Source: Microbacter margulisiae (GTDB taxonomy: Bacteria > Bacteroidota > Bacteroidia > Bacteroidales > Paludibacteraceae). Taken from it: 64,000 nt of DNA. The DNA lies in the NCBI RefSeq assembly GCF_014192515.1, contig NZ_JACHYB010000001.1, positions 620,001-684,000 on the forward strand, written 5' to 3'. Each line of letters begins with the position of its first letter. Position 1 is the first letter of the stretch. Below the pieces are notes generated by a model that saw only the letters and a list, made by a program, of their open reading frames with translations, was not told the origin of the DNA and did no database searches. Position numbers and translations under genes: made by a program. Of the stretch, positions 27,660 through 29,405 are shown in pieces.

Positions 27660-29405
27660 TCAGTCTAGTTCTAGTTTAAATGTTTTACGCAAATGGGTTA
27701 AAGCATCGTTTTTTTTCTGGAGCCAGGTATAACGGTCCTGCGAAGTAAATAGCGCATTGTCATCTTGCTGTGTTTCATCCAATTCAAATTCAAATGTCAG
27801 AAAGTCATTGCGGAGCTCTTCCAGCAGATAGATTTTCAGGTTGTCGAAAATTTCACTGAATGACTTTTGTTGTATCGGTTGATCAAACACCATACGGATA
27901 GAGTCGCTTCCTGTTAACGTTGGCAGGTGGTTGAGCATATAGTTTCTTGCATATATCTGATCGGCTATTTTGTCGTTGGCAAACTTCAGCCATGCATTTT
28001 GTAATGCTTCGGGGCTAACAGGTTCATGTTGTTTAACTTTGTATTCGCCTGCCTGATTTTCGGTAACCATTTGCGTGATTTCCTGAGGGGTTGTCCGAAT
28101 GGATATAGAGGGAGGCACCACAGCTTGCTTTTTTTGCACTGGTTCCTGATAGCGTCCAATACTCGAAGATGGATGTGTTGTTACGTATTGTGTGGCAACA
28201 ACATTATTCTGTAGTTGAGTATTGTTTAGCGTTGGAGCAGGAGCAGGAGAGGATACCCTAATCTTTTCGATGGATTTATGCTCAACAGTCTCATCAGTCA
28301 CAACTTTTTTTTTATCGTTCCATTGACAGAGTCTGATCAGTAGCAATTCGGTGAGCAATCTTTTGTTACGACTGGTGCGAAAATTCAAATCACATTCGTT
28401 GGAGAGTGTCAATGCATCGAACAAAAAAACAGGATTGCATTGGGCCGCTTGCTTTACGTATAACTCCCTGATAGCATTACCCATTTCAAGCAATTGGACA
28501 GTTGCAGAATTTTTGCACATCAACAAGTCACGGAAATAGCCGCTCATACCTGTTACAAAGTTTTGAGCATCAAATCCCTTGTTCAGAATTTCGTTAAATA
28601 ATAGCAATGCATCCGCTACACGATTGCTAAGAAAGCAATCGGTCAACCTGAAATAGTAGTCATAATCGAGTACATTCAGATTTTCGATTACAGCTTGATA
28701 AGTTATATTCCCGCTACAGAAACTAACAACCTGATCGAATATAGAAAGAGCGTCACGCATTCCTCCGTCAGCTTTTTGTGCAATGACATTCAGGGCTTCA
28801 GGTTCAGCTGTGATACCTTCCTTCTCAGCAATGGAGGCAAGATGTTCTACAATATCATTGATGCCGATGCGTACAAAATCATAAATTTGGCAACGCGAAA
28901 GAATAGTGGGTATGATTTTATGTTTTTCGGTAGTGGCCAAAATAAAAATAGCATGGGCAGGAGGTTCTTCCAGCGTTTTGAGAAATGCATTGAACGCTGC
29001 CTGTGATAGCATATGCACCTCGTCGATAATATATACACTATAATTACCTATCTGGGGGGGAATACGTACCTGATCAATAAGGGAACGAATGTCGTCAACG
29101 GAGTTGTTCGATGCAGCATCGAGTTCGTGAATGTTGTATGAACGCTGTTCGTTGAAAGTACGGCATGACTCGCATTCGTTGCAAGCTTCAAACTCAGGCG
29201 TCAGATGTTCGCAGTTGATTGTTTTTGCAAAAATACGGGCACATGATGTTTTTCCTACTCCACGAGGCCCGCAAAACAGGTAAGCATGAGCCAAGTGATT
29301 AGTTTTGATGGCATTCTTCAGTGTGGCTGTGAGTGCCGATTGCCCTACTACTGATTCGAATGTGGTGGGACGGTATTTTCGTGCAGAAACAATGAAATTA
29401 TTCAT
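27660..29405 (-). CDS. dnaX: DNA polymerase III subunits gamma and tau
   Basis: Clamp-loader ATPase. Walker A GPRGVGKT (46-53), zinc cysteines C65, C75, C78, C81, Walker B DEVHMLS, and the sensor-1 segment ILATTEKHKI with arginine finger in SRCQIYDF. Domain III runs to about residue 362. Beyond it is a low-complexity linker (about 365-450: Pro, Gln, Ser, Val rich) and a tau-type C-terminal domain, total 581 residues. At the end of domain III an A9 run (28305-28313) encodes K365-K367; one base gained or lost there gives a stop after 370 or 368 residues. This suggests a gamma form made by slippage, as in other bacteria. Confidence 0.96.
   Translation of the reverse strand: MNNFIVSARKYRPTTFESVVGQSALTATLKNAIKTNHLAHAYLFCGPRGVGKTSCARIFAKTINCEHLTPEFEACNECESCRTFNEQRSYNIHELDAASNNSVDDIRSLIDQVRIPPQIGNYSVYIIDEVHMLSQAAFNAFLKTLEEPPAHAIFILATTEKHKIIPTILSRCQIYDFVRIGINDIVEHLASIAEKEGITAEPEALNVIAQKADGGMRDALSIFDQVVSFCSGNITYQAVIENLNVLDYDYYFRLTDCFLSNRVADALLLFNEILNKGFDAQNFVTGMSGYFRDLLMCKNSATVQLLEMGNAIRELYVKQAAQCNPVFLFDALTLSNECDLNFRTSRNKRLLTELLLIRLCQWNDKKKVVTDETVEHKSIEKIRVSSPAPAPTLNNTQLQNNVVATQYVTTHPSSSIGRYQEPVQKKQAVVPPSISIRTTPQEITQMVTENQAGEYKVKQHEPVSPEALQNAWLKFANDKIADQIYARNYMLNHLPTLTGSDSIRMVFDQPIQQKSFSEIFDNLKIYLLEELRNDFLTFEFELDETQQDDNALFTSQDRYTWLQKKNDALTHLRKTFKLELD
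28305..28313 (-). promoter_or_regulatory. Candidate slippage (recoding) site in dnaX: A9
   Basis: Coding-strand GAT-AAA-AAA-AAA-GTT. With ten A, or a -1 ribosomal shift, the reading is AGT-TGT-GAC-TGA. With eight A it is AAG-TTG-TGA. Both alternative frames stop at once, leaving AAA+ domains I-III only. No clear downstream hairpin or upstream Shine-Dalgarno stimulator was seen, so polymerase slippage is the better fit. Confidence 0.55.

Follow-up and report, generated by a model that had tools for sequence, protein, structure and literature searches.

A predicted transcriptional slippage site at the gamma/tau boundary of dnaX in Microbacter margulisiae and its counterparts in the Bacteroidia

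Introduction

The dnaX gene of Thermus thermophilus is subject to transcriptional slippage (Larsen et al, 2000, as related in the accessible text of PMC1088944 and PMC5009743), and split dnaX genes carrying poly-A tracts have been collected with GeneTack (Antonov et al, 2013; PMC3711429, accessible text). Slippage on nine A in Thermus and poly-A split dnaX genes are thus both already published in these sources. Titles and abstracts, with most subscription papers outside the search scope, yielded no report of the trait in Bacteroidia or of dnaX genes split in the +1 direction. Here we describe a run of nine A in dnaX of Microbacter margulisiae, and compare it with dnaX loci from across the class.

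Results

A nine-A run directly behind clamp-loader domain III

The window, the whole 64,000-nucleotide stretch of DNA that we analyzed, holds a dnaX gene matching the NCBIfam models NF011531/PRK14971 (E = 9e-244) and TIGR02397 (E = 6.7e-134). Its features are:

27660..29405, minus strand: dnaX, DNA polymerase III subunit gamma/tau; open reading frame of 581 aa in the tau reading
28320..28682, minus strand: domain III (DNA_pol3_gamma3), residues 242-362; Pfam PF12169 scores 27.5 bits (cut-off 24.4)
28305..28313, minus strand: A9 run, codons 365-367 (AAA AAA AAA); slippage site proposed from sequence and relatives
28298..28300, minus strand: TGA reached with 8 or 11 A, predicting a 368- or 369-aa gamma
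28294..28296, minus strand: TGA reached with 10 or 13 A, or by a -1 ribosomal shift, predicting a 370- or 371-aa gamma
27660..28304, minus strand: linker and C-terminal domain present in tau alone; the ORF runs on in frame and matches the C-terminal profile

The plus strand reads T9 at 28305-28313 and the dnaX coding strand GAT AAA AAA AAA GTT, bearing out the initial annotation, which had assigned the nine A to K365-K367 of dnaX, with a tau of 581 residues. That annotation also placed the run directly after domain III, the final portion common to gamma and tau, and the profiles agree: PF12169 ends at residue 362, and TIGR02397 (dnaX_nterm), spanning residues 6-360, ends at 360. The run starts three residues past the shared gamma/tau part, at 63% of tau. 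We located the tau C-terminal domain with a profile built from intact relatives; the window protein, itself among the profile's own sequences, scores 126 bits.

When the run length is varied in silico, 9 or 12 A give products of 581 or 582 aa, and 8, 10 or 11 A give products of 368, 370 or 369 aa. The computed mass of the short products is 41.5-41.7 kDa. These lengths match the earlier proposal of stops within four codons in either other frame, which would yield a gamma-like protein of about 368-370 residues. At 7 of the gene's 555 codon positions the two other frames stop equally soon. The window gene thus has an intact frame-0 tau ORF with a nine-A run, and near stops in both other frames, as in Thermus-type slippage dnaX. 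It lacks the split-gene architecture of a 0-frame stop past the run with tau elsewhere, its tau lying in frame 0.

The A9 run is very probably a programmed transcriptional slippage site of the Thermus type, a prediction made from sequence comparison. RNA polymerase would realign the nascent RNA on the T9 template, producing dnaX mRNAs with variable numbers of A. Messages with 9 or 12 A would be translated into tau (581-582 aa), and those with other numbers would reach one of the two TGA stops and yield gamma (368-371 aa, about 41.6 kDa). A single dnaX gene would thereby provide both clamp-loader subunits. We infer that slippage occurs in Microbacter margulisiae and that gamma is used there, in some ratio to tau.

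The run recurs across the Bacteroidia

We scanned 274 dnaX loci, 272 of which include the N-terminal half (L059 and L060 do not). Removal of one duplicate (L088) left 251 Bacteroidia loci, plus 20 that belong to the phylum but to other classes, a sample and not a census; 13 further loci from the window family (L325-L337) lie outside the 251 and count only in the family figure. In the window genus, A9 or A11 is found in all eight loci, the window counted, and in each of the seven whose tau end is readable the two other frames terminate within four codons. Downstream of the run the bases vary by species while the run and near stops are kept, in keeping with the pattern that the initial annotation had named as its check. 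Beyond the genus this conservation is partial. In the window family the run is present in 32 of 49 loci and in 20 of 32 sampled genera, and absent from the other 12 genera. Across the class, the stretch from domain III to the tau C-terminal domain contains a run of at least nine A (A9-A13, most commonly A10, in 112 carriers) in 171 of 251 loci; the other 80 lack it. Since 80 of 251 Bacteroidia loci and 12 of 32 family genera manage without the run, the device is dispensable.

The position of the run is sharply restricted. The 251 genes contain no run of at least nine A in 267,546 b of N-terminal sequence, 168 in 64,977 b of linker and 7 in 97,385 b of C-terminal sequence; T runs of at least nine are absent from their N-terminal parts and linkers. 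The dnaX run in Bacteroidia is not a product of chance. Named carriers include Pedobacter, Sphingobacterium, Dyadobacter, Rufibacter, Hymenobacter, Chitinophaga, Aquimarina, Flagellimonas and a Chryseobacterium gleum bin; the Pedobacter and Chitinophaga loci include those of P. puniceum (L161) and C. terrae (L193). The single Bacteroides bin in the sample (L149) has no long run, with A5 only.

The subsamples differ in how they were drawn. Eighty loci were found by a KKK-containing peptide pattern and are therefore biased to the run, which 62 of them have; 59 were hand-picked, about one per family plus split-looking ones (run in 34); 25 were distinct newly added best matches (run in 9, all frame 0). 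Among the best 29 of 49 same-class genomes, all 29 have the run. The least biased subsample takes every dnaX match with an N-terminal half from 61 near-relative genomes, giving 57 loci besides the window. There the run is present in 36, with tau in frame 0 in 22, +1 in 7, +2 in 6 and unreadable in 1.

In other classes of the phylum, 7 of 20 loci have at least nine A. Five of them (L270-L274), which resemble the Chlorobi cases of Antonov et al (2013), carry A9-A10 about 18-27 codons past domain III with a frame-0 stop soon after; tau is in +2 in L272-L274.

Twin stops accompany the run

Near stops in both non-tau frames go with the run. Of 167 run-bearing loci in which the tau end could be read, 153 have stops within eight codons in both frames (the other 14 have an alternative stop more than eight codons away), as compared to 11 of 77 run-less loci, in which stops were measured behind the longest shorter run. 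Fisher's test gives p ~ 1e-33, a value inflated by treating related genomes as independent. On a tree of the N-terminal proteins, nine independent pairs that differ in the run can be drawn across supported branches; over 200 random pairings the stops typically agree with the run in six, oppose it in none and show no difference in three (median p 0.031, range 0.016-0.22).

Both stops lie within four codons in 72 of 114 frame-0 run-bearing genes (63%), against 711 of 5700 synonymous shuffles (12%), 369 of 5700 random N-terminal places (6%) and 107 of 2160 other linker places (5%).

The DNA frame of tau drifts while the run and stops persist

Of the 171 run-bearing Bacteroidia loci, 114 have tau in frame 0, 40 in +2 and 13 in +1, with 4 unreadable. 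Two loci with inconsistent frames (L138 and L163) are retained in these counts as +2. On the tree the tau frame must have changed at least 31 times, and the run must have been gained or lost at least 32 times. Nine families hold more than one tau frame (seven if L138, L163 and loci with weak matches to the tau profile are excluded). The DNA frame of tau thus drifts while the run and its stops persist. The initial annotation had called the tract an independent or conserved equivalent of the known systems; that alternative can now be sharpened to a tract present in several Bacteroidia orders, with at least 32 gains or losses on the tree.

In the 53 split genes, frame 0 gives gamma, and tau requires an altered run length. 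The tau frame is open from the run to the tau domain in 51 of them. Re-initiation at a separate tau ORF is unlikely in general, since 33 of 53 have no ATG between the run and the tau domain; an ATG within 25 codons is present in 5, and some ATG, GTG or TTG in 41, and individual genes may use it.

The accessible text of Antonov et al (2013; PMC3711429) treats orthologues shifted in both directions as a mark of transcriptional realignment. Stops in both frames, together with tau in both shifted frames, fit a polymerase that adds or drops bases, whereas a ribosome shifting by -1 reaches one frame. The initial annotation left the mechanism undecided; with the tau of relatives in all three DNA frames, the transcriptional route is favored, and its reading of the A9 tract is supported.

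A -1 ribosomal frameshift is an unlikely source of the predicted window gamma

An E. coli-type programmed -1 frameshift would have the ribosome slip on AAA AAA and terminate after SCD, giving a 370-aa gamma. We consider this unlikely for the window, even though the run offers an in-phase A_AAA_AAA. The window gamma boundary has no in-phase A_AAA_AAG. In relatives, an in-phase linker A_AAA_AAG with a -1 stop within five codons occurs in 19 of 188 frame-0 loci, mostly as the ends of A10 runs. One run-less split locus (L141, genome G247, family f30) reads AGA AAA AAG TAG, with an in-phase A_AAA_AAG abutting the 0-frame stop and tau in -1, which is the E. coli solution; two loci of the same family (L122 and L123) have A10. 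As a general -1 substitute, slippery heptamers fail: they occur in phase with a -1 stop within five codons in just 8 of 74 run-less frame-0 genes.

A -1 shift needs the -1 stop alone, yet both frames keep their stops, and in 13 run-bearing relatives tau is in +1, out of reach of such a shift. None of four SD-like motifs is present in the 25 nt upstream of the window run, and in relatives SD-like sites upstream of the run (14 of 171) are at background (122 of 1710 random N-terminal 25-mers). We found no stem-loop downstream of the window run (fold z +1.5). Downstream folds computed for 89 of the 171 run-bearing loci show a mean z of -0.40, with z < -2 in 10, compared to a mean of -0.16 with 2 below -2 for 40 run-less genes, and -0.31 with 1 below -2 for 40 N-terminal pieces. 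Downstream RNA structure is therefore in weak excess only, and not a general stimulator. A ribosomal contribution in some relatives is possible, and some could use both devices.

According to the accessible text of PMC9976891, Bacteroidia ribosomes do not recognize Shine-Dalgarno sequences, and low prfB frameshifting is reported in F. johnsoniae (PMC12421855, accessible text). Weak use of these signals and weak frameshifting by ribosomes may be the reason that RNA polymerase would do this job in Bacteroidia.

Two further sites belong beside these heptamers. The window linker contains a single in-phase A_AAA_AAG, at 28128-28134 on the minus strand, which is 60 codons beyond the run and meets a -1 stop only after 31 codons; the seven genus relatives lack it. 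In the window family, L021 and L038, from genera g17 and g15, both read TCA AAA AAA GCT, followed one codon later by a -1 stop; this may be a -1 frameshift site that substitutes for a long run.

DNA-level variation and chance

Variation of run length in the DNA itself (phase variation), or homopolymer errors in assemblies that mimic split genes, is a very improbable account. Mononucleotide runs do mutate, many of the sampled genomes are metagenome bins, and the frames of L138 and L163 are inconsistent. Against this, split genes are held by single-contig assemblies (G159, G208 and G339), and run length and frame, with tau in +1, are identical in three genomes of one genus (L128, L131 and L140); together these two observations mean that assembly error offers no general explanation. 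Twin stops are also found with in-frame and split genes alike. Loss of tau in some cells should be costly, since tau is essential in E. coli.

The window plus a further 400 kb of its genome (464 kb in all) contains 344 ORFs, called mechanically with a minimum length of 120 codons and totaling 389,526 b. These hold four runs of at least nine A, dnaX being one, where synonymous shuffles predict about 24.6 (15.00, 6.45, 2.25 and 0.85 for lengths 9 to 12), and no run of at least nine T, where about 7.7 are expected. Coding sequence in this genome thus avoids long A runs, and dnaX retains one at a domain boundary. Shorter runs are common: as the initial annotation remarked, other genes here have stretches of eight A or T (39 A8 and 4 T8 in the 344 ORFs). 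The three further A9 runs lie in minus-strand ORFs at L284:12691-13920, L279:10494-11879 and L289:1639-3105, the first of which, judged by eye, may encode ClpX. Avoidance of A runs in coding sequence is expected where the polymerase slips on them, following the argument in the accessible text of PMC1088944.

Lysine content and codon preference account for part of the run, because 2313 of 5700 synonymous shuffles of the frame-0 genes (41%) still have at least nine A at the site; by itself the run is weaker evidence than the stops. Although these shuffles, and the predominance of AAA among lysine codons (2379 against 1098 AAG in the N-terminal parts of run-bearing loci), are what a functionless AAA-rich lysine stretch in a low-complexity linker with chance stops nearby would lead one to expect, the position of the run, its association with twin stops and the 53 genes split at it with the tau frame kept make such a coincidence exceedingly improbable.

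A candidate +1 frameshift site in one Bacteroidales family

Three split loci among the 251 lack a long run: L141, and two that point to family f2 of genome G037. We surveyed this family, matching dnaX in 38 of 40 genomes and reading 30 loci. Tau is in +1 with no long run in 26 of the 30, from 11 genera (L295-L317 and L321-L323), in frame 0 in 3 and unreadable in 1.

All 26 share a phase-0 AGGCAA about 6-20 codons past domain III, and C at +7 and G at +12 do not vary either; the core is NNN AGG CAA TCR CRG GAG, and most flanking positions carry less than 0.7 bits. The +1-frame stop of L299 starts 5 bases before AGG, and the 0-frame stop of L321-L323 lies 9 bases past the first base of AGG, which together confine the shift to about four codons. 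In the N-terminal parts, 20 of 390 arginine codons are AGG. The 15-base core has 25 matches in 23 of the 40 family genomes, 21 of them at dnaX. Among 247 genomes of the order, an 18-base form matches in 2, each belonging to f2. The site is a candidate for +1 programmed ribosomal frameshifting. It is reminiscent of the yeast Ty1 site, CUU_AGG_C.

Another run-less oddity is L200, from an uncultured member of the Bacteroidales (CAMZFW010000113.1). It has an in-frame TAG six codons past domain III and no A run, with tau in the same frame, and could represent readthrough, another recoding site or an error.

Discussion

Taken together, our data make it somewhat likely that transcriptional slippage produces both DnaX products commonly, and perhaps ancestrally, across the Bacteroidia, possibly as their ribosomes cannot use SD-stimulated frameshifting. 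The run would free the DNA frame, letting tau drift over all three, and one Bacteroidales family would have exchanged the run for +1 ribosomal frameshifting at a conserved NNN_AGG_C, a third way of splitting dnaX.

If so, slippage in a core replication gene would be a common trait of a major bacterial class and not a Thermus oddity. The dnaX genes at 53 of the 251 sampled loci would look truncated or frameshifted though probably intact. Relatives with tau in three DNA frames would offer a natural experiment that separates polymerase slippage from ribosome slippage. With several recoding devices serving one gene in related lineages, the question of why cells want gamma would become testable by comparison and by experiment.

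Of the described systems, E. coli shares with the window the outcome predicted here, one gene for both subunits, with the split at roughly the same domain boundary. It differs in that the window boundary lacks an in-phase A_AAA_AAG, an SD-like stimulator and a stem-loop, and has stops in both frames. The split dnaX genes in the accessible text of Antonov et al (2013; PMC3711429) have poly-A at the gamma end and reach tau by a shift, as in the 40 Bacteroidia relatives with tau in +2 (equivalent to -1), and the same architecture occurs in some relatives at the phylum level. Some of the nine A10 dnaX genes in that set may come from Bacteroidia. In contrast, tau of the window is in frame 0, and where the 17 dnaX genes given there are all -1, 13 Bacteroidia relatives shift in the opposite direction. 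Thermus, as portrayed in the accessible sources, shares with the window nine A in the coding strand where the tau ORF is intact, stops soon after in the two other frames and, as predicted here, one gene for both subunits. Microbacter margulisiae belongs to another phylum, its slippage is predicted from sequence, and its Bacteroidia relatives include genes split in both directions.
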